Assembly (NCBI GenBank): GCA_014727815.1
Contig: WJMS01000018.1
Location: forward strand, 1 to 35,189
Source of the DNA: a candidate division GN15 bacterium
Lineage (GTDB): Bacteria > Zixibacteria > MSB-5A5 > GN15 > FEB-12
DNA length: 35,189 nt
Direction of reading: 5' to 3'
Both the position numbers and the translations under genes were made by a program. Below are positions 1,047 to 31,186 of the stretch, one piece after another (the stretch's first letter is position 1; every line of letters begins with the position of its first letter). The notes under the pieces are model-generated. The model was not told the origin of the DNA. It searched no databases and was given only the letters and a program-made list of their open reading frames with translations.

Positions 1047-3071
1047 CTACCGTTTCAAGTAGCGATCAAACCACTTCAGCATCCACTCGAGGCGGGCGAT
1101 TCGCCGGTCGGGCCGGCCATGCCGGGAGAGGCCGTGCGGTTCTTCGGGAAAGCGCACCATCTCACACGTCTTCCCGAGCATCTTCAGCGTGACAAACATC
1201 TGTTCAGCCTGTTCGATCGGGCAGCGCAGATCCTGTTCGGAGTGGATGATCAAAACCGGTGTTTTGACATTCTTCATGTACGTCAGCGGTGAGCACTTTT
1301 CGTAGTTCTCCGGATTGTTCATCGGGGTGCCGTCGAACTCCCGCTCCAGCGCCCAGCCGATATCCGACGAACCGAACATCGATTCCAGATTAACGACCGA
1401 GCGCTGGGTAATCGCCGCCCGGAAGCGATTGGTGTGCCCGATCATCCAGTTGGTCATCCAGCCGCCGTAGGAGCCGCCGGTGACGCCGATGCGTTTGGTG
1501 TTGACGTACTTCTGTTTTTCCAGCCAGTCGGCGGCGGCCATGCAGTCTTTGTAATCGAGTTCGCCCCAGCCGCCGGCGATCGAGCCGGCCCAGGTTTCAC
1601 CGCGACCGGTGCCGCCGCGCGGGTTGGTGTAGAAGACGACATAGCCCTGGGCAGCCAGGTACTGCATCTCGTGGAAGAAGGTGTAGGCGTACTGGGCGCG
1701 GGGGCCGCCGTGAATCTGGAGGACGGCCGGGTATTTGCGGGTTTTTTTGAAGTCGGGCGGGGTGACCACGAAGCCCTGGACTTTTGTGCCGTCGAACGAG
1801 GAGAACATCAGCTCGCGCGTGCGGCCGAGTTTGATTTCATCGCGTATGAAGCGGTTGAGATCGGTAATTGTCTTTGCCTTCTTCTCGGCGCCGTAGTTGG
1901 TCGGGCAGGTGATGATGTCACCCGGGGTGGTCAGGTCGGAACGCACACATACGGCGAGTCTGGTCTTGCCGTTGATGGAGAAGCCTTTGATATGGCAGTC
2001 ACCGCGATAGATACGGGTCGGTTTGCCGGCGCTGCGGGTGATGTAGAAGAGGTTGGTGACGCCGGTATCGGAGGCGGTGAAGTAGATCCGTTTGCCGTCG
2101 GCCGACCAGGCCGCCGCGCCGCTTTCGCCGAACTCACCCATGTCCGAGATGGAGTGGTCAACCGCCATTCGATCCCACCCGGGCATGAGGTCGCGTGCTT
2201 TCGGGCTGCCTTTGACGCCAACAATCCAGATGTGGTAATTGGTCACACCCCAGGCATCGTTTGGGTTGTCGTGCCCCAGATAGGCGATCGTTTTGCCGTC
2301 GGGAGAGAACTTCGGGACAGCGATCGGGCCCGGCGGAGTGGCGATTTTCTTTTCCTTGCCGCCGCCGAACGGGATGATGAAGAGATCGTCGCGCAGGCTG
2401 TCGACATCGGGGTTCTTGCTCCGGTTGGAGTGATAGACAATCCACTTGCCGTCGGGGGAGACATCGGGCGACTGATTGTCCCGCTTGCCGCTGGTGATCT
2501 TTTTCAGGACGCCGTCGCGGAGGGCCATCGAGTAGACCTGGAAGGTGTCGTTCGGCAGGAATCCCTGTGCATCAAACTTGTACTGCAGCCGGGTTATGTG
2601 CCGGTAGACCGGCGGCTTTTTCTTCTCCTCGTCATCGTCGATGAAATGTGAGTCGTTGTAGCGAAGGCAGAAAACCAGGTGCCCGCCGTCGGGATGGAAC
2701 TGTAAGGAGCCGATGGCGCCGTCGATTTCGGCCAGTCGTCGTTCGGCGCCGCCCTCGACCGGCATGACGTAGATCCCGGTCTTTTTGTCGCGGGTGGAGA
2801 CGAAGGCAAAGGAGCGGCCGTCGGGGGCCCAGGCGACCTGGCGATCGTTGTTGTCGCCGAAGGTGAACTGGCGCGATTCGCCGCCGGAGAGGTCGTGCAT
2901 CCAGATGTTGGTGAAGTATTTCTTCTTGTCGCGGTCCATCCGTTCGACCGTGTAGGCGACGTACTGCTCATCGGGCGAGAGCTTCACCGCGGTGGGCAAG
3001 CGCAGGCGGTAGAGGTCTTCGGCCGAGATCGGCCGTTTGCGGCTGGTCGATTTGCGGGTCCGTTTCTTCAT
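1047..3071 (-). CDS. S9 family (prolyl oligopeptidase-like) peptidase / acylaminoacyl peptidase
   Basis: N-terminal PD40-like repeats, GGSYGGWMTNW nucleophile elbow, HSEQDLRCPIEQ and EEPHGLS near the C-terminus; GGAGG upstream of ATG. Confidence 0.92.
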   Translation of the reverse strand: MKKRTRKSTSRKRPISAEDLYRLRLPTAVKLSPDEQYVAYTVERMDRDKKKYFTNIWMHDLSGGESRQFTFGDNNDRQVAWAPDGRSFAFVSTRDKKTGIYVMPVEGGAERRLAEIDGAIGSLQFHPDGGHLVFCLRYNDSHFIDDDEEKKKPPVYRHITRLQYKFDAQGFLPNDTFQVYSMALRDGVLKKITSGKRDNQSPDVSPDGKWIVYHSNRSKNPDVDSLRDDLFIIPFGGGKEKKIATPPGPIAVPKFSPDGKTIAYLGHDNPNDAWGVTNYHIWIVGVKGSPKARDLMPGWDRMAVDHSISDMGEFGESGAAAWSADGKRIYFTASDTGVTNLFYITRSAGKPTRIYRGDCHIKGFSINGKTRLAVCVRSDLTTPGDIITCPTNYGAEKKAKTITDLNRFIRDEIKLGRTRELMFSSFDGTKVQGFVVTPPDFKKTRKYPAVLQIHGGPRAQYAYTFFHEMQYLAAQGYVVFYTNPRGGTGRGETWAGSIAGGWGELDYKDCMAAADWLEKQKYVNTKRIGVTGGSYGGWMTNWMIGHTNRFRAAITQRSVVNLESMFGSSDIGWALEREFDGTPMNNPENYEKCSPLTYMKNVKTPVLIIHSEQDLRCPIEQAEQMFVTLKMLGKTCEMVRFPEEPHGLSRHGRPDRRIARLEWMLKWFDRYLKR

Positions 3072-3234
3072 CGGCGGGCTCCTCCGTGGTTGGCGATAGG
3101 TCAGGTTGCCGGAAAGTACGCCCAGACGGTGCCCGGCTCAAGTCCAATCTAAACTGGCCTTGTCGGCCCCACGATATCCCCGATTTGGCTTGCCTTTTCG
3201 GTTTCGAGTGCGCACATTGGGCGGCAGAATTGGT

Positions 3235-3262
3235 TTGCCTTTTGGTCCGAAAACCGTATCAT
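3235..3262 (+). promoter_or_regulatory. putative sigma70-type promoter of the E1 gene
   Basis: TTGCCT - 16 nt - TATCAT. Confidence 0.45.
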
Positions 3263-3361
3263 ACCGGGAGCTTTTTTCCCGCTCGACTGTTGTAGGCACA
3301 AAGGTAATAATCAGTCAAAGTGTATCGTGTGTAGATAGATAGAGCCCAAGGAGGTTGCCCG

Positions 3362-21539: not shown

Positions 21540-21578
21540 CTGATCGTATGCGGCATTCCAGGAGTGCCGGCCGATCAG
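21540..21578 (+). promoter_or_regulatory. long stem-loop in the 5' leader of the dockerin gene
   Basis: CTGATCG/CGATCAG outer stem with inner CGGCATT/AGTGCCG stem. Confidence 0.55.
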
Positions 21579-21712
21579 TGAGAGTCCTAAGGGAAGCACG
21601 TCACACACATATGTTACCGGGTCACGGCGAATACTCGTGCGTCTTCGGCACGGTCCGTGCACCGGGGGGAATGCAAGTCACTAGGTCAGTCATAACGGCA
21701 TGGAGGCAACTG

Positions 21713-24067
21713 ATGAAGATGAGACTGTTCACGGTCGTATTCTGTTTGCTTGTGATCGGAGCCCTGCCGGCGCAGGCACAGTTTCAGCAGGATCCGCTTG
21801 ATGACGGGGTAGCAGATACGGTTGATATGGTCCTGACTGTCGCGCCGGACGCGACCACCAATCAACTCAACGTACAGTTCGACCTGTGGGTGTTCAATGA
21901 CAGTAACGAACTGGCGGGCGCCACGATGGGGTTCAACTGGGACAACTCCAACATGCAGATGGACAGCGCGGTGGCGACCACGCTGGTAACCGACGCGTTT
22001 AACCTGTTTCTCACTCTGTACGAAAACAACAATCTGGCTGTCACCAATACCAACCAGCGGTTCAATCTGGCGGGCACGCGCTCACCCGGCAACCCGGGGA
22101 TCTTGCCGGATCCGAATCGTCGACAGTGGGCTTCGTACTACTTTACGCTGTCGGACTGGAACGTCTCCGACTCGATCGTGCTGGACACGAATGAGTACAG
22201 CCCCTCGATCAAACTGCAGTTCACTCGTCCGGACGCCCAGCCGTACGTACCGTACTGGACCGGTGCGATCATTGTCCGCGATACGGCTGTGCCGTCGAAC
22301 CTGCTGCTGAGTGAAGATACGCTGTTCTACTCAGCCGAGGAGGGTGGCGCCTTTCCACCGAGTCAGACGTTTGATGTGCTGTCGGACAACGCGCCGCTGA
22401 ACTTCACCCTCGATGAAGATGCGGGCTGGATTGTCAAATCACCATCGTCGGGAACGACGCCGGAGAATGTGACGGTGAGTATCAACACGACGGCGCTGCC
22501 GGCCGGTGTTTACTTTGATTCGATTGAGGTTGCGGCGCCGCAGGCGGCAAACTCGCCGCAGTATTTGTATGTCCAGCTCGATCTGCAGCAACCGCCGCCG
22601 GTGATTGCAGTCGATCCTTCGTCGTTTATTTTCAACGCCGTTGCCGGTGGCAGCAACCCGCCGACGCAGGATCTTGATATCTCGAATATCGGCGGTTCGA
22701 CGCTGAACTGGACTGTTTCCAACAGCGAGTCTTGGCTGAGCCTGAGCCCGATGTCGGGCAGCGGTGATGGCACGGTAACGCTCTCGGTCGATATCACCGG
22801 CCTGGCGTTCAACGACTACTTCGACACCGTGGTGGTGAGTGACCCGACGGCTGAGAATGACCCGGTACGGGTGCCGGTGCGGTTGACGGTGGGTTCGGAT
22901 CTGCCGATTATCGCGGCCGACTCGGCGTTCAACTATGTCGTGGTGGATCTGCCCGATGCGATCGTGCCGCCGCGCGATTTCGAGATATTCAACGACGGCG
23001 CCGGGCAGATGACGTTGTCGCTGAGTACGAACTCGCCGCGCATTACGCTGTCGGATACGAGCGGGACGGCGCCGAAGGTCTTCACGGCGACATTCGACCT
23101 GGTCGGAGAAGGCAGCAACGGCGATGACATCTATGATACGGTCTGGGTGAGTTCGGACGAAGCGATCAACTCGCCCTTCCCGGTTGTCTTCCGTTTCCAC
23201 TTCGTCGATATCCCGGCGAGGGTGAATGCCAGTCCGGCGACCATTGAGTTTGACATCTACGAGTGTTACGAGGGCTTCAGTGGGGCGCCGTTCGCACGCA
23301 ACGTGTCGGTCATCAATGGTGGTGGCGACAATCCGATGCAGGCGTATCTGGTTTACGAGTCCGATCTGTTTACGGTCAACCGTGATACGATTCAGACTCC
23401 GGGAACGTTTACTGTCACGCCGAACATTCTCGACTGGCCGGTCGGGACCTACGAGGATACGATTCTGGTGGGCGCCAACAACGCCATCAACAGTCCCGAT
23501 ACAGTCATTGTGGTGTACAACCTGCTCGAGGGTACTGAGCCGCCTGAGATTCTGCTCAGTCGGCAGGTAGTCATAGATCCGCTCAAGGAAGATGCCGGAC
23601 CGGTCGCGCTGACCGGTTTCGAGGTGAGCAACGCTCAGGACGGCTGTATGGAGTGGTATCTCGAGGAGGATGCTCCGTGGGCGTTTGTGCAGGACACCTC
23701 CGGAATCAACGGCGATGTCGTCAGGTTGATATTCGATCCAACCGGTTTCCCGCTGGGTGAGTACGAGGATACTATCTTCGTGTACTCCGATGAAGCAGTC
23801 AATTCGCCGCAGACGGTACGGTTAATCATGCGGGTGTGGAGTTTCAACGGTGATGTGAACTGGGATGGGAACGTCGACCTGGCCGATGCGATTTACCTGG
23901 TTGCGTATCTGTTCAACTCCGGTCCGTTTCCGCAGCCGGAGTTTATTGTCGGTGACGTCAATTGTGACAACGACGTCGATCTCGAGGACGTGATTTACCT
24001 GGTGAACTATCTTTTCCTGGCCGGCCCCGAGCCGTGCGGGAATCCCTTCAAGTCAGCCGAGTCATAG
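21713..24067 (+). CDS. secreted multi-BACON-like repeat protein with C-terminal dockerin type I-like repeats
   Basis: GGAGG upstream of ATG, signal peptide MKMRLFTVVFCLLVIGALPAQA; repeats of L.....GG..P.....(V/I)...(W/L)..; C-terminus GDVNWDGNVDLADAIYLVAYLF...GDVNCDNDVDLEDVIYLVNYLF. Confidence 0.85.
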   Translation: MKMRLFTVVFCLLVIGALPAQAQFQQDPLDDGVADTVDMVLTVAPDATTNQLNVQFDLWVFNDSNELAGATMGFNWDNSNMQMDSAVATTLVTDAFNLFLTLYENNNLAVTNTNQRFNLAGTRSPGNPGILPDPNRRQWASYYFTLSDWNVSDSIVLDTNEYSPSIKLQFTRPDAQPYVPYWTGAIIVRDTAVPSNLLLSEDTLFYSAEEGGAFPPSQTFDVLSDNAPLNFTLDEDAGWIVKSPSSGTTPENVTVSINTTALPAGVYFDSIEVAAPQAANSPQYLYVQLDLQQPPPVIAVDPSSFIFNAVAGGSNPPTQDLDISNIGGSTLNWTVSNSESWLSLSPMSGSGDGTVTLSVDITGLAFNDYFDTVVVSDPTAENDPVRVPVRLTVGSDLPIIAADSAFNYVVVDLPDAIVPPRDFEIFNDGAGQMTLSLSTNSPRITLSDTSGTAPKVFTATFDLVGEGSNGDDIYDTVWVSSDEAINSPFPVVFRFHFVDIPARVNASPATIEFDIYECYEGFSGAPFARNVSVINGGGDNPMQAYLVYESDLFTVNRDTIQTPGTFTVTPNILDWPVGTYEDTILVGANNAINSPDTVIVVYNLLEGTEPPEILLSRQVVIDPLKEDAGPVALTGFEVSNAQDGCMEWYLEEDAPWAFVQDTSGINGDVVRLIFDPTGFPLGEYEDTIFVYSDEAVNSPQTVRLIMRVWSFNGDVNWDGNVDLADAIYLVAYLFNSGPFPQPEFIVGDVNCDNDVDLEDVIYLVNYLFLAGPEPCGNPFKSAES

Positions 24068-24092: not shown

Positions 24093-24125
24093 GCGCCGTC
24101 CCCGCATTGGGGGCGGCGCTTTTTT
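24093..24125 (+). terminator. Rho-independent terminator
   Basis: GCGCCGTCCCC-GCATT-GGGGGCGGCGC followed by TTTTTT. Confidence 0.9.
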
Positions 24126-24180
24126 GTGAGCCGGGCTTGCCCCGGCCGGATCAGACCGCTCGCTGGGGAAGAGTTTTTGT

Positions 24181-24208
24181 TTGCATTTGGGGGGCAATCC
24201 CGTATCAT
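24181..24208 (+). promoter_or_regulatory. putative sigma70-type promoter of miaB
   Basis: TTGCAT - 16 nt - TATCAT. Confidence 0.45.
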
Positions 24209-24256
24209 ATCGCCGTCACCCGGGCGCAAACGAGTACCTGCCATCTGGGTTATGTC

Positions 24257-25576
24257 ATGCATAAGCAAGACCGCGTACGCACTTTTCACATATCGACTTA
24301 CGGATGCCAGATGAACCTGGCCGACTCCTCCACGCTGGCTTCGACCCTGACCACCCGCGGCTACCGCCGGGTGGCCGAAGAGGCCGAGGCTGACCTGATC
24401 ATTCTCAACACCTGTTCGGTACGGGAGAAAGCCGAGGACCGGGTGTACGGGCGGTTGGGGGAGATCTACAAGTTCAAGAAACGTAAGCCCCATCTCAAGG
24501 TGGCGGTAGTGGGCTGCATGGCCCAGCGACTTGGCCCGGAGTTGAGCCAGCGAGTACCTCACGTCGACTACGTGCTGGGCACCGACCGGGTTTTTGAGTT
24601 GCCCGATGTGCTCGAGGGGCTGGAGGGTACCTCGCCGATCATGACGGCGTTCGGCCACGAGAATATGGATTTGATCGAGCCGATCAAAGAGACGCCGTAT
24701 TCCGGATTTATAACGATCTCGCGTGGCTGCGACAACTACTGTACCTACTGTATCGTGCCGTTCGTGCGGGGCCGCGAGCGGGAGCACTCCGATGACTACA
24801 TCGTTGATGCCGCAAAGAAGATGGCCGACGAGGGTGTAGTGGAACTGACTCTGCTCGGCCAGAATGTCAACAGCTACAAGTACAACGATACTGACTTCCC
24901 GGGCCTGCTTCGCCGGGTGGCACGCGAAACGGGTATCCGGCGAATCCGCTACATGACGTCGCACCCGAAGGATCTCTCCAAGCGGCTGGTCGAGGTGATG
25001 GCTGAGGAGCCGAAACTGATGCCGCATATTCACCTGCCGCTGCAGTCCGGCGCCAATCGAATTCTCAATCGGATGGGGCGAATCTATACGATCGAACACT
25101 ATCTGAAGATCATTGACTACATTCGGTCCAAGCTCGAATATGTTTCGATAACCACCGACCTGATTGTCGGTTTTCCGTCGGAAACCGAGGAGGAGTTTGA
25201 GCTGACGCTGGAGGCGGTACGTCGGATCGGCTATGATTCGGCTTTTATGTTCCGCTATTCGGTACGCCCGGGGACGACCGCCGCCCGATACGCTGATGAT
25301 GTTCCGGAGGAGGACAAGATTCGCCGGCTCAACAGGCTGATTGAGTTGCAGCAAAGTATCGCCTATGAGCGTAACCAGCGTGAAGTCGGCCAGGTGCGGG
25401 AGAGCCTGGTCGAAGGTTACTCGCGGCGCAGCAAAGAGCACATGCGGGCCCGGACGGATGGCAACAAGACGATTTTGTTCCCGGCCGGCGATGTCGCGGC
25501 GGGGACGGTGCTGCCGATCCGGGTAACATCGGCGGACGCCTTTACACTCCACGGAGAGGTTGCGGGGGTGCATTGA
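24257..25576 (+). CDS. miaB: tRNA-2-methylthio-N6-dimethylallyladenosine synthase
   Basis: YGCQMNLADS, LNTCSVREKAEDRVYGRLGE, radical SAM SRGCDNYCTYCIVPFVRGRERE, C-terminal TRAM-like domain. Track start 24107 overlaps the terminator. Confidence 0.95.
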   Translation: MHKQDRVRTFHISTYGCQMNLADSSTLASTLTTRGYRRVAEEAEADLIILNTCSVREKAEDRVYGRLGEIYKFKKRKPHLKVAVVGCMAQRLGPELSQRVPHVDYVLGTDRVFELPDVLEGLEGTSPIMTAFGHENMDLIEPIKETPYSGFITISRGCDNYCTYCIVPFVRGREREHSDDYIVDAAKKMADEGVVELTLLGQNVNSYKYNDTDFPGLLRRVARETGIRRIRYMTSHPKDLSKRLVEVMAEEPKLMPHIHLPLQSGANRILNRMGRIYTIEHYLKIIDYIRSKLEYVSITTDLIVGFPSETEEEFELTLEAVRRIGYDSAFMFRYSVRPGTTAARYADDVPEEDKIRRLNRLIELQQSIAYERNQREVGQVRESLVEGYSRRSKEHMRARTDGNKTILFPAGDVAAGTVLPIRVTSADAFTLHGEVAGVH

Positions 25577-28518
25577 TGCCGCAAGCGTTGTCGGCGATTC
25601 TGGCGCCGGTCATAGCAATTCTGGCAGTCGTATTTCTGGTAATACGACTGCGCTTCTTTTCTGATGAGCGCCCCGACGGCGGTGTCTTGATGGTCCTTGG
25701 CGGGGTACTGGTTATCGCCGCGGCCCTGTGGGAAACGGTCAAGCTGGCCGGTGAGTACGAACACTGGTTTGTGGCCAATGCCTACGCTTACATCGATCTC
25801 ACGCAAATCCTCGTATTGACTGCCGGGGTGCTGCTGATAACTGCGGCCCTGGCGTTGTATCATGATTTCTGGCAAACCCGCCACGACGAGCTGGGTGAAC
25901 GTCAGAGCAAGCTCGGTATTCTGGAACAACTGCAGGAGGACGCTCGGCAGCCATACCAGGTGGTTGACCTGCTCGGGATGGGGCTGCGCGAGATTATGCT
26001 GCACTGGTCCGATTGCGCGGGAGTGGTTTTCCTTATTCATCGCCAGCGCCGTCAGTTCATCCTGATCGACTCGGTCCGTCTTGACAAGAACGAAACGGCG
26101 CTGATGGAATACCTGCCGCTCCGGCGGAATGTCGTGGCTGAGGCGCTGGAAGAAGGCGCACCGATGATTGGCGGAGGCTTCCAGTTTATCGACCGTGAGG
26201 GCACCGTGGTGCCGTCGCGTTTTCGATCCACGCTGGTCCTGCCGCTGGTGTCGGGGATGGAGAAGCTGGGTGGCATTATGCTCTTCTCCGAGGAAGAAAA
26301 AGCGTTCTCACGGACCGACATTCGTGTACTCGGGCCGGTCGCCGGCTGGCTTGCGGAGCGAGCGAGAGGCACTCGTCTCGGCCGCGAACTCAGCACGGCC
26401 CGGACCGAATTACAGCAACGCACCAACCAGCAGTCATCGGTTCTCCATCGCCTGTCGGCCACAGTTGCCGCGCTGAGCGGCAGTGATGTGGTAGCGGAGT
26501 ACTGCCGCAGCCTGGTGGGGGCGGTGTCGGCGGAATCGGTCCATCTGTGCGGGCTCAGGCATGGGTCGCTGCACATCTATGGCGGCAGCGAACCGCTTCT
26601 GGAATTGTCCGAGAATTTCCGGACGGCGCTGGTCGATGCGATCGATCGCAAGAAGCCGCTCATCCTGAATCAGGAAGCGGTCGATAACGATGGCCGGTCA
26701 CGTGTCGTCATGTCGACTCTCATGTATCCCCTGCCCGATACGGACAGTCGCGATGCGCTTCTGTTTCGCAAGGAAGCGCCGCCCTTTGCCGTCGATGAAG
26801 CAACGCTCAAACGGCTGGAGCTGTTTGCAACGATGGGTCGGTTGGCGCTGGCCAGAACGGACAGCCGTAAACTGGATCTGGCCCGACGGATCGGTTTTGA
26901 CCGGGTGCTGCAGTTACTGACCTCGGAGGGCGAGTTCGAGAAGTCTGAACAGGCTCTGTCGTTTTTCATTCGGCAGATGGCCGACATTGCGTCGGAGCAG
27001 ACGGCTGCGGTTGCGCTGACTCGCCGCGACGGGGGAGTATTGACGGGTTTCGACGGCATCCGCGTGCAAACGTCGCCCGAGGAGATCGTCGTGCAGCCGG
27101 GCGAGGGGACTATCGGGCAGAGCCCGATCTCGCGTCAACCGCATTTCATTGTCGGTCGGGCGCAGGTCAGTGCCGAGTTATCAGTCTATCGCCCGGAAAC
27201 ACAGACATCGTTGTCGCGGCTTTACGGCGAGCGCGGCCTGCCGACCATGCTGGCCTGCTGTCCGCTCATGCGTCTTGATGAGCCGATCGGAGTGGCGCTT
27301 TTTCTTATTCATGATCTGGAGGGTGACCGCCAGGCCGAATGGCAGCGACTGCTCACCCTTGCCACCGGTCTGTTCTCGCTTCGCCTGTCGGTTCTGGCCC
27401 TGCAACAGCAGCAGCTGATTGCTGACGGGGCGGAGGTGGCAGCGGCCGCGCCGGCCGGACTTGTGAATCAGATCAATAACGCGCTCTCGGGGATCATGGG
27501 CAATGCCGAGCTTGCGGCCAGTCGTGACGACATTTCCGGTGAGACGCAGCGACAGTTGCGAAGTATCGTGGTGGAGACCGAGCGGCTGGCCAACCTCGTG
27601 AAGTCATCGCTGATCGACAAGCCCGAGCCGAGTCAGGCGGGGGCGTCGCCGCCCGTATCAGAGACTGCTGGCCTCGCCGGAGTCATCATCGGCGTCCTCG
27701 AGGAGGCCCGGATATCCGGTGACACTTTCATGGCGGGGGGGCGTCCCCGTGAGATCGATCTGCGGCTGGAGGCGACCGAGTCGGCGATGATTGCTGATGA
27801 GGAAATCCGTTCTCTGTTCGAGAGCGCCCTGAATCGGTTTGCTGCCCTGGCTCGTGAGGAAGAGGTGCTGACAGTCGCGGTGTACCAGCGCGATGACTAT
27901 GTGTTTCTGGACCTGTCCCGGCATCCCAGAAACTTCCCGCCGGTCCGTCCGGTGGCCGGGTTTGGCGACTACCGGATTGCGGCCGAGGCATTCCGGGAAC
28001 GGCCGGGGGATGTATTCCTGTCGCGATTGAAGGATGACCCGGCGTACTACGCCCATGACCGACACAGCGATACCCCGAGTTTCCTCTCGTTCAAGTTCCC
28101 GGCGAGTCGCGCCGGAGAATCTGCACCCGCTGCTGCTTTGGCCGGGGCTGGACAGTTTGCCGTGCTGGCGATTGACGATGAGGCGATTATCCTCGACCTC
28201 ATCGTGGCCATGTGTCAGTCGCTGGGCTTTTCGGTCCGGACGGCATCTTCGGGCGAGGCCGGGCTTCAGCTGGCCCGGCAGCAGCACTTCGACCTGGTCC
28301 TGACCGATCTGGCTATGCCCGGGTTGTCCGGGCTGGAAGTAGCCCGGGAGCTGCACAAAGCCCAGCCGGATTTACCGGTCATTCTGGTTACCGGCTGGCA
28401 GGCATCGCTCGACCAGGCCGATCTCGACCGGGCTGGGATTGAGCATGTGCTCTCCAAGCCGTTCCGGATCGAGCAGCTGACCGATATTGTCCGGTCGATT
28501 GCGTCACAATCCGGCTAA
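25576..28518 (+). CDS. membrane GAF-domain sensor with degenerate histidine-kinase core and C-terminal receiver domain
   Basis: N-terminal TM helices, GAF-like regions, DHp-like GLVNQINNALSGIMGNAEL, REC VLAIDDEAIILDLI...LVLTDLAMPGLSG...SKPF. ATG overlaps the miaB stop (TGATG). Confidence 0.82.
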   Translation: MPQALSAILAPVIAILAVVFLVIRLRFFSDERPDGGVLMVLGGVLVIAAALWETVKLAGEYEHWFVANAYAYIDLTQILVLTAGVLLITAALALYHDFWQTRHDELGERQSKLGILEQLQEDARQPYQVVDLLGMGLREIMLHWSDCAGVVFLIHRQRRQFILIDSVRLDKNETALMEYLPLRRNVVAEALEEGAPMIGGGFQFIDREGTVVPSRFRSTLVLPLVSGMEKLGGIMLFSEEEKAFSRTDIRVLGPVAGWLAERARGTRLGRELSTARTELQQRTNQQSSVLHRLSATVAALSGSDVVAEYCRSLVGAVSAESVHLCGLRHGSLHIYGGSEPLLELSENFRTALVDAIDRKKPLILNQEAVDNDGRSRVVMSTLMYPLPDTDSRDALLFRKEAPPFAVDEATLKRLELFATMGRLALARTDSRKLDLARRIGFDRVLQLLTSEGEFEKSEQALSFFIRQMADIASEQTAAVALTRRDGGVLTGFDGIRVQTSPEEIVVQPGEGTIGQSPISRQPHFIVGRAQVSAELSVYRPETQTSLSRLYGERGLPTMLACCPLMRLDEPIGVALFLIHDLEGDRQAEWQRLLTLATGLFSLRLSVLALQQQQLIADGAEVAAAAPAGLVNQINNALSGIMGNAELAASRDDISGETQRQLRSIVVETERLANLVKSSLIDKPEPSQAGASPPVSETAGLAGVIIGVLEEARISGDTFMAGGRPREIDLRLEATESAMIADEEIRSLFESALNRFAALAREEEVLTVAVYQRDDYVFLDLSRHPRNFPPVRPVAGFGDYRIAAEAFRERPGDVFLSRLKDDPAYYAHDRHSDTPSFLSFKFPASRAGESAPAAALAGAGQFAVLAIDDEAIILDLIVAMCQSLGFSVRTASSGEAGLQLARQQHFDLVLTDLAMPGLSGLEVARELHKAQPDLPVILVTGWQASLDQADLDRAGIEHVLSKPFRIEQLTDIVRSIASQSG

Positions 28519-28603
28519 ATCAAGCCATTTTTCTCCCCTGTGACGGTAAGGAAATCAGGCTCCGTCGCCGATACCTTGGATAGGCAACTAAACCGGGGTA
28601 CCG

Positions 28604-29935
28604 ATGGATAAACTGAGTATCATCGACCAGATTCACAAGAGCAACGACCTGCTGTCCATGCCCCAGGCGATCTCCGAGATCCTTGGTGAGATGGACAAGC
28701 CGGAATTCTCCTCCGAAGCCCTGGCCAAGATCATTCTCAAAGATGCTTCTCTCACAGCGCGTATTCTTCAGTTGGCCAACTCGCCGTTCTACCATCGGCT
28801 AAACGACATCAAGAATGTCAACCAGGCGATTCAGGTCCTCGGTTCGACTACGGTCAAGTGCCTGGCCCTGTCGTCATCGGTGCTCAATCCCACGCTGATT
28901 GAAGAGGCCTCCGGGATCAACGTGAAAAACTTCTTCTCGTCGATTCTGACCGTAGCTGCGGCGGCGGAGAAGATTGCCAAGGCGGTGGGATACAAGTCGC
29001 CTGACGTAGCGTTCATAGCCGGCCTGCTGCATCATGTCGGCATTCTGTTTTTCATGCACCACTATCCGGGCGCGTATCGTCGGGTGGTGGGCAAGCAAGT
29101 GCAGGCGTTGACGCTTATAGATGCCGAGCGGGAGGTGTTCGGGATCGATCATGCTGAGGTCGGTTTCCAGCTCTGTGAGCGCTGGCACTTGCCGTCGGAG
29201 ATCTGCGTGTCCGTGAGGGATCACCATTCGTTCACGACGCTCAACGAGCAGGATACGTTGCAGAATGTGATCCGCCTGGCGAGTCTGCTTACCGACGACG
29301 CCGTAACGACGTATGAGTCGGACTTGCAGGATCGGATCATTCGCGTCAACGCGGTTGCTTACTCCCTCGGCCTGGACAAGCCGCAGGTGGATGAACTGAC
29401 GTCATCGCTGCTGGCCGAGACATTGCGGATCGCCAAGTACCTGGATATCGACATCGGCTCGATCGAAGAGGTGATCACGCGCGCCAACAAGGAGATCTGG
29501 AAGACGTACCTGATGGTCGAGAACCTGTTCAAGGAACGGCAGGAGTTGTCGGCCAAGTTGCTCAAGGAGGAGCGGGCGCGGGGCGCCATCCTCTCCAAGA
29601 ACATTGCCATCGCGACCATGTCGCATTACCTGAACAACGCGACCATGGCGATCTACGGTCGGGCTCAGATCATGCGCAAGTGGCACGAAGACGAGTCGCA
29701 TGACAAGTTGCTCGAGAAGCTACCGGCGACACTCGATGTGATCGAGAACTCCATTCGCAAAATCAAGGCGGTGCTGCTCGAGATCAAGGACATTTCACCG
29801 ATCGACGAAGTGAAGTTCTACGACATGTCACAGGCGCTCAATCTCGACGAACGCATTGCCAAGCGAATGGCGACACTCGACGAGGAATCCGGACTGGTGC
29901 TGCCCGAGGAAGCAGTAGATATCCAGCAATCGTAG
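28604..29935 (+). CDS. HDOD-domain protein with C-terminal DHp-like helix
   Basis: HDOD features (LLSMPQAISEIL, DASLTARILQLANSPFY, AIQVLGSTTVKCLAL, AFIAGLLHHVGILFF); C-terminal IATMSHYLNNATMAIYGRAQIM. Confidence 0.87.
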   Translation: MDKLSIIDQIHKSNDLLSMPQAISEILGEMDKPEFSSEALAKIILKDASLTARILQLANSPFYHRLNDIKNVNQAIQVLGSTTVKCLALSSSVLNPTLIEEASGINVKNFFSSILTVAAAAEKIAKAVGYKSPDVAFIAGLLHHVGILFFMHHYPGAYRRVVGKQVQALTLIDAEREVFGIDHAEVGFQLCERWHLPSEICVSVRDHHSFTTLNEQDTLQNVIRLASLLTDDAVTTYESDLQDRIIRVNAVAYSLGLDKPQVDELTSSLLAETLRIAKYLDIDIGSIEEVITRANKEIWKTYLMVENLFKERQELSAKLLKEERARGAILSKNIAIATMSHYLNNATMAIYGRAQIMRKWHEDESHDKLLEKLPATLDVIENSIRKIKAVLLEIKDISPIDEVKFYDMSQALNLDERIAKRMATLDEESGLVLPEEAVDIQQS

Positions 29936-29983: not shown

Positions 29984-31186
29984 ATGCTAACCTACCTGAC
30001 ATCAGGGGAGTCCCACGGGCCCCAGCTGACGGCTATTGTCGATGGCCTGCCGGCCGGGCTGACTGTCGCAGTCGATGAGTTAAACTTCCAGATGGCGCGG
30101 CGTCAGAAGGGTTATGGTCGCGGCGGGCGAATGAAGATCGAACAGGATCAGGTGGAGTTTGTCTCCGGCCTGCGGCACAGTCGAACGCTGGGCGGACCGG
30201 TTACGATGGTCATCCGCAACCGGGACTGGGAGAACTGGGTCAATATCATGGATCCGGTGTCGCCGCTACCGGACGATCTACATCTGCGCGAGCAGCGTCT
30301 GGCCCATGAGACGACCATGCCGCGTCCGGGCCATGCCGATCTCGCGGGTGGTATCAAGTACAATCACAAAGACCTTCGCAATGTGCTCGAGCGCGCCTCG
30401 GCGCGCGAGACGGCCGCCCGGGTGGCGGTGGGGTCGTTGTGTCGGCAGTTGCTGGAGCAGTTCGGGGTGCGATTCGCCTCGCATGTGGTGCAGATCGGCG
30501 AGGTCGCGGTGGCACGAGAGCGGTACACGATTGAGCATATCGATGACATCATCGAAAGATCGGAAGCATCCGAGGTGCGCTGCCTGGTTTCGGAAGTGGA
30601 AGCGAAGATGATCGAGGCGATCAAGACGGCAAAGAAGAAGCGCGATTCCCTGGGTGGTGTGGCCGAGGTTATTGTCACCGGTTTGCCGGTTGGGTTGGGC
30701 GGTTTCTCGCAGGGACGGCATCGGCTCGACTCGCAACTGGTGGGGGCGCTTATGTCGATACCGTCAGCGAAAGGCGCCGAGATCGGTCTCGGCTTCGCCG
30801 CGGCGGCGAGGCGCGGTTCGGAGGTGCATGACGAGATCTTCTACGATACCGAGGGTGATCCGCGGAAGAAGAAGTTCGTGCGAAAGACCAATCGGGCCGG
30901 GGGGATCGAGGGTGGTATCACCACCGGTGAACCGATAGTTGCGCGGGTGGCGGTCAAGCCGATCTCTACTTTGAATCGTCCGCTGCAGACGGTCGATGTC
31001 GTGACGAAAGAACCGGCCGAAGCAATGGTGGAACGTACCGACAACTGCGTGGTGCCGGCCGTGGCGGTAATCACCGAGGCGGTGATGGCGATCGAGTTAA
31101 CCGAGGTGTTTCTCGACAAGTTCGGCCGTGACAACATGGCTGAGATCACGCGCAATGTTGAGTCGTTTCTGGCTACTGACTACTAG
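29984..31186 (+). CDS. aroC: chorismate synthase
   Basis: LTSGESHGPQLTAIVDGLPAG, RRQKGYGRGGRM, RPGHADLAGGIKY, ERASARETAARVAVG. Confidence 0.96.
   Translation: MLTYLTSGESHGPQLTAIVDGLPAGLTVAVDELNFQMARRQKGYGRGGRMKIEQDQVEFVSGLRHSRTLGGPVTMVIRNRDWENWVNIMDPVSPLPDDLHLREQRLAHETTMPRPGHADLAGGIKYNHKDLRNVLERASARETAARVAVGSLCRQLLEQFGVRFASHVVQIGEVAVARERYTIEHIDDIIERSEASEVRCLVSEVEAKMIEAIKTAKKKRDSLGGVAEVIVTGLPVGLGGFSQGRHRLDSQLVGALMSIPSAKGAEIGLGFAAAARRGSEVHDEIFYDTEGDPRKKKFVRKTNRAGGIEGGITTGEPIVARVAVKPISTLNRPLQTVDVVTKEPAEAMVERTDNCVVPAVAVITEAVMAIELTEVFLDKFGRDNMAEITRNVESFLATDY

Follow-up and report, generated by a model that had tools for sequence, protein, structure and literature searches.

In HisKA histidine kinases the residues around the phosphorylated histidine have separate roles: the acidic residue next to it (H+1) is required only for the kinase reaction, and the Asn or Thr at H+4 only for the phosphatase reaction (PMC3510030; also PMC8292422). 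The histidine itself is largely dispensable for phosphatase activity in CrdS, whose H371A variant gave CrdA~P a half-life of 2.6 min compared to 53.5 min unaided (PMC3510030), and it is needed for this activity as well in PleC (cited in PMC3510030), while the DHp domain alone is stated to be enough for phosphatase activity in NtrB and EnvZ (PMC3510030). Kinase-derived phosphotransferases with dead ATP domains have been described as ChpT (PMC3433190) and PhyT (PMC5898713), and the Caulobacter pseudo-histidine kinase DivL has Tyr550 at the histidine site (PMC4211667). Pseudo-histidine kinases are known mainly from such single cases as DivL; a literature search for RcsD-type pseudo-kinases gave nothing in the open set.

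The window (the whole stretch of 35,189 nucleotides analysed here) carries four genes on one strand, encoding a MiaB-like methylthiotransferase, the two regulators P0001 and P0002, and chorismate synthase. They look like one transcription unit, as the first two overlap in TGATG: the ATG of P0001 at 25576 shares bases with the stop codon of the methylthiotransferase gene. The first-pass annotation had placed P0001 at 25576..28518 and P0002 at 28604..29935, and both reading frames are open there. A MiaB/RimO-like gene also precedes P0001 in one locus of family f9 (L149), and in f11 (L136) aroC directly follows the P0001 homologue. A large ORF at 21548-24067 of the window encodes BACON-type and dockerin type I domains; its product is probably secreted. 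The features of the locus are as follows.

24107..25576, plus strand: MiaB/RimO-like radical-SAM methylthiotransferase gene (Pfam); its stop overlaps the P0001 start (TGATG)
25576..28518, plus strand: P0001, membrane-anchored hybrid pseudo-histidine kinase, 980 aa (three hydrophobic segments, GAF domains, pseudo-DHp, pseudo-CA, REC)
25576..25875, plus strand: three hydrophobic (predicted transmembrane) segments of P0001, near residues 1-31, 33-58 and 70-98 (hydropathy)
25975..26358, plus strand: GAF domain of P0001, residues 134-261 (Pfam GAF_2/GAF_3)
27328..28149, plus strand: DHp and CA-like region of P0001, residues 585-858 (AlphaFold pLDDT 85.9)
27466..27480, plus strand: NQINN of P0001, an NxxNN motif, with Asn631 at the phospho-His position and Asn635 at H+4
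27709..28101, plus strand: pseudo-CA domain of P0001 with the conserved non-ATP motifs RISGDTFMAGGRPRE; FLDLSRHPRNFPPVRPVAGFGDY; DRHSDTPSFLSFKFP; no N/G boxes
28162..28491, plus strand: REC domain of P0001, residues 863-972, with acceptor Asp911 (codon 28306-28308), acidic pair DD 867/868, Thr939 and Lys961 (Pfam Response_reg)
28604..29935, plus strand: P0002, HDOD protein with an orphan DHp hairpin, 443 aa
28652..29230, plus strand: HDOD domain of P0002, residues 17-209 (Pfam PF08668, E 3.1e-52; Foldseek 3hc1, E 5.5e-11)
29462..29794, plus strand: long signalling helix and DHp hairpin of P0002, residues 287-397 (helix 287-362, helix 366-397), no CA after it (AlphaFold model)
29624..29638, plus strand: HYLNN motif of P0002, with His341 (CAT, 29624-29626), Tyr342 at H+1 and Asn345 at H+4
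29984..31186, plus strand: chorismate synthase (aroC; Pfam), 48 bp after P0002

The replacement of the phospho-accepting histidine of P0001, read earlier from the letters of a single gene, proved to be a fixed trait: the position of Asn631 is Asn in 47 of the 48 aligned order-level orthologues, which makes it the second most conserved of the 274 columns of the DHp and CA-like region, and the phospho-acceptor of HisKA kinases is thus missing. The Asn residues at H+3 (46/48) and H+4 (47/48) are kept as well, while column +1 is variable (rank 124 of 274). Profile alignments place the VAHELN or VAHDFNN of three further kinases from this phylum (L139, L140, L141) at this site; Gly stands at position 0 in two P0001 orthologues (L079 and L167), and NxxNN is present also in the class-level homologues of families f7-f12. 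HisKA was matched by P0001 itself below threshold (residues 628-677, E 3.6e-5) and by 32 of the 48 orthologues. The N and G boxes of the ATP-binding HATPase_c domain, which had been reported missing, are indeed absent, none of the 48 orthologues matching this domain at E<0.1. The REC domain was intact as described, with a Response_reg match at residues 863-972 (E 1.2e-25) and a complete D, D, D, T/S, K receiver pocket.

For the region behind the pseudo-DHp the lack of ATP boxes stood, but the stretch, which has no Pfam match in P0001, is not featureless: it has a predicted kinase-like CA fold and conserved motifs of its own (HISGxLYMxxGRPRE, YLDISRHRxNFPPVxxVAGFGxY and DRxSxxPxYLSFRFP). The AlphaFold model of residues 585-858 (pLDDT 86) consists of a DHp hairpin with an alpha/beta domain behind it, and Foldseek aligned it over nearly its full length to histidine kinases, including DivL and LvrB, at E about 1e-6 to 1e-5 (best 8.8e-7) and at a low whole-chain TM of about 0.3-0.37, which is probably due to the interdomain angle or hinge. 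The PDB sequence search with the profile of this region gave weak matches only (LvrB E 0.011, DivL E 0.019). The model is that of a predicted kinase fold, DHp plus a Bergerat-like CA, without the ATP site. Among the proteins read in f7, f8, f12, f14, f18 and f19, no active-kinase ancestor with a phospho-His and the same N-terminus of three transmembrane segments and GAF was found.

Several members of the P0001 family depart from this architecture. In L190 (f8) and in L191, L194 and L199 (f12) a GAF-(PAS)-NxxNN hairpin-REC order occurs with no CA domain, while L192, L193, L196 and L200 (f18, f19) have no DHp and have lost the REC acceptor Asp (Ser, Gly, Asn or unaligned), which leaves pseudo-receivers on a stalk of three transmembrane segments and GAF. 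In G034:C44 (L064, L017) the P0001 frame is interrupted between pseudo-CA and REC by an in-frame TGA or some other defect, and the acidic pair of its REC shows a D to N replacement. The single-contig genome G057:C1 has P0001 at two distant sites, 2207707-2210106 (L146) and 2603337-2604158 (L072), of which one is joined to a different reading frame and the other contains a stretch of N, indicating either rearrangement or assembly error.

The predicted fold bears directly on a reading of P0001 after the example of DivL, where a core without chemistry would bind a response regulator in its phosphorylated form, be it the REC of the same chain or a separate one, and relay that state through the fold, with P0002 as the effector. 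It is favored by the conserved non-ATP surface motifs of the CA-like domain and by Foldseek, which matched the entire DHp and CA-like region to kinases, among them DivL (4q20), and the principle has been demonstrated by DivL (PMC4211667). However, the H+4 Asn, needless for a pure reader, is preserved, and in f8 and f12 the CA domain is missing and the NxxNN hairpin runs directly into REC; we consider this reading unlikely.

P0002 corresponded to its earlier description as an HDOD protein ending in a DHp helix that keeps its histidine and lacks a CA domain: the HDOD match is strong (E 3.1e-52), HATPase_c was not found by Pfam, and the position of His341 is His in all 104 full-length HDOD-DHp proteins. 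A HisKA-like match covers residues 333-401 (E 2.6e-4), and among the P0002 orthologues HDOD was matched by 55/55 and HisKA by 24/55. The AlphaFold model shows the HDOD domain, a helix of 76 residues and an antiparallel helix, followed by short helices only and nothing CA-like. Within the 104 proteins, a set that includes a second paralogue of about 30% identity located beside a YprB-like gene, H+1 is always aromatic (Y, H or F), H+3 is always Asn and H+4 is Asn in 103. Since H+1 is never acidic, autophosphorylation of His341 by the HisKA mechanism is unlikely. The second paralogue (L095, L096-L104; NHYINN or SHYINN motif) is widespread, beside a conserved gene for a YprB-like RNase_H_2 protein and genes for HEAT-repeat proteins; in the genome of the window it is present only as a contig-end piece (G000:C310, L105:11443-12165). 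A single scan of the genome contigs with P0002 as query gave one close relative only. In L185 the HDOD-DHp gene next to P0001 is tandemly duplicated (G079:C416:554-1861 and 2019-3326).

In related genomes, where co-occurrence of the two genes had been proposed earlier as a check, their linkage was strict in seven families (f1-f5, f9, f10): in all 81 loci with both as neighbours they are adjacent and on the same strand, mostly 15-150 bp apart. Neither of the results named beforehand as refuting the idea was obtained: ATP-binding boxes are absent, the key residues are invariant or nearly so and the genes are linked. The observation on P0001 and P0002 is confirmed and is more strongly conserved than the first-pass annotation could know, both genes carrying a reduced histidine-kinase core that was strictly maintained throughout a bacterial phylum. 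An ordinary decay, with a dying hybrid kinase lying beside an HDOD gene and neither Asn nor His having any meaning, is hardly credible: the loss of the ATP boxes does resemble decay, but the Asn column ranks among the most conserved, the His is present in 104/104, conserved motifs of a separate kind mark the CA-like domain and the linkage persists across families, a conservation that already contradicts this reading.

The conserved linkage suggests that the two proteins do meet, but each also occurs without the other. HDOD-DHp was not found at E<=1e-60 in f7, f8 and most of f12, although NxxNN-REC proteins are present there, and in f11 the HDOD gene is missing from its slot beside the P0001 homologue; conversely, P0001 was not detected in f15-f17, where HDOD-DHp keeps its His. 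In f5, g44 and g41 the receiver of P0001 has lost the acceptor Asp or the pocket (D to E or G in f5), and the adjacent HDOD-His is unchanged; the His is kept beside damaged P0001 in L069, L070, L079, L150 and L151. In g44, where the pseudo-DHp has been deleted, and in f5, which no longer has it, P0002 keeps its hairpin. The suggestion that the two hairpins, both of the HisKA kind and encoded by adjacent genes, form a mixed four-helix bundle is contradicted by these cases, namely by the occurrence of either hairpin alone and by the loss of the pseudo-DHp next to a kept partner, and has very little probability left.

The same cases weigh on the proposed split relay, where the P0001 REC and the P0002 DHp would exchange phosphate between His341 and Asp911, with P0002 as a phosphotransferase similar to Spo0B, ChpT and PhyT and with HDOD as the output. 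The strict linkage in seven families, the intact REC pocket of most P0001 proteins together with the invariant His341, and the precedents of ChpT (PMC3433190) and PhyT (PMC5898713) with their dead ATP domains are all in its favor. On the other hand, His341 is invariant beside a dead receiver (f5, g41, g44) and where P0001 was not detected (f15-f17), and NxxNN-REC proteins occur without HDOD-DHp. The relay is therefore disfavoured, although a His-Asp exchange between the two keeps some probability in the families where both are intact. Of the complementary losses that the relay was built on, the substitutions and their linkage are real; a mutual complementation of the losses within a single relay is not borne out, since the HDOD-His stays invariant without P0001 or with a dead receiver, and NxxNN is lost with its own REC.

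The last point was followed in 74 P0001-family proteins scored for NxxNN and for five REC residues, three borderline ones (L080, L092, L167) being counted as NxxNN by hand. The REC pocket was intact in 62 of 62 proteins with NxxNN, while in the 12 proteins without NxxNN it was damaged in ten and intact in two (f14). On an IQ-TREE tree of the 74 proteins, restricted to their N-terminal part (345 residues), there are five changes of NxxNN and four losses of REC (f5; f18+f19; g44; g41), and each of the four REC losses coincides with an NxxNN loss. When four losses were distributed randomly with weights by branch length, this coincidence arose at p about 1e-5; the independent-pairs sign test gave p 0.125 and, having only four independent REC losses, cannot reach 0.05. 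Because NxxNN and REC are lost jointly while the neighbouring HDOD-His persists, the simplest reading is that NxxNN serves its own REC and the HDOD-His serves something else. The main alternative is that the joint decay may reflect the loss of a whole signalling role rather than of a contact.

We favor, with slightly less than even confidence, an explanation where the hybrid P0001 is dead as a kinase and uses its NxxNN hairpin to dephosphorylate or to read the REC~P of the same chain, and P0002 is a separate, co-transcribed kinase-dead DHp/HDOD module. Both proteins lack a conserved H+1 acid and have the H+4 Asn. With no phospho-His, no conserved H+1 acid and no ATP site, the core of P0001 would have lost the autokinase function, while NxxNN would have kept the receiver-facing surface and with it the H+4 Asn on which the phosphatase activity of HisKA proteins depends; it is because of this pair, the H+1 acid not conserved and the H+4 Asn kept, that P0001 is best taken for a protein without kinase activity that acts on its REC~P as phosphatase or as reader. 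Its natural client would be the C-terminal REC of the same chain, phosphorylated by something else, and the hairpin would act on REC~P under GAF/membrane control. The forms without CA in f8 and f12 fit the phosphatase reading because the DHp alone is enough in NtrB and EnvZ (PMC3510030), and NxxNN without HDOD-DHp (f7, f8, most of f12) and HDOD-His without P0001 (f15-f17) are counted for it as well. P0002 would be an HDOD output protein dimerised by its kinase-dead DHp (HYxNN), which may act on, or be phosphorylated by, response regulators at large, as phosphotransferase or phosphatase, and not specifically the P0001 REC; its His could take part in phosphotransfer with response regulators, after the example of ChpT or PhyT, or assist a phosphatase reaction. 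The observations underneath are sequence features, conservation, linkage, predicted folds and correlated losses; the co-transcription, the REC~P chemistry, the phosphodonor of REC and the docking target of P0002 are what we infer from them.

Against action on the own REC it counts that phosphatase chemistry alone does not explain Asn in particular at position 0, that the His of PleC is needed for phosphatase activity too, that f14 has an intact REC without NxxNN, and that P0001 is linked with P0002. Still, the evolutionary losses suggest that the histidine-less P0001 has the receiver of the same chain as its target, perhaps in the role of a built-in off-switch, and does not form one split relay with its neighbour. 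Extended to the whole phylum, the proposal becomes more tentative: histidine-less hybrid kinases might use an NxxNN hairpin, sometimes without CA, as a dedicated built-in phosphatase or phospho-reader for their own REC, commonly beside an HDOD protein with the opposite, His-keeping and CA-less DHp.

The NxxNN-REC and HDOD-HYxNN families each seem to be a variant of two-component parts that are already known, and no description of these variants was found in the literature searched, the architecture of HDOD plus a HisKA-like hairpin included (open literature). In the present case many families share a fixed Asn at the phospho-site, the REC partner belongs to the same polypeptide and the two are tied together by natural losses, which makes a His-less DHp hairpin as stand-alone off-switch or phospho-sensor a directly testable question. 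As an output design the HDOD-DHp fusion is unusual: its DHp comes without kinase or receiver and yet has an invariant His.

The best profile and Foldseek relatives of P0001 are HisKA hybrid histidine kinases (LvrB of Leptospira, 8vc9; CrdS-type, PMC3510030), with which it shares the DHp plus CA fold and a helix of the HxxNN type; in contrast to them, it has no phospho-His, no conserved H+1 acid and no N/G boxes. Similarly to DivL, P0001 keeps the kinase fold with the phospho-His replaced and would be used around a response regulator; it differs in having Asn instead of Tyr, in lacking ATP boxes, in carrying a REC itself and in conserving the H+4 Asn, and at the sequence level the profile of its DHp and CA-like region matched DivL weakly. 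P0002 resembles Spo0B, ChpT and PhyT in its kinase-derived DHp hairpin with His and without a working ATP domain, but it has an HDOD output domain, an aromatic H+1 and no CA remnant, whereas a degenerate CA follows the hairpin in Spo0B and ChpT, and phosphotransfer is only putative here. Residues 17-209 of P0002 are those of HDOD proteins (PF08668; 3hc1, SadB 9qzk), to which P0002 adds the C-terminal HisKA-like hairpin.
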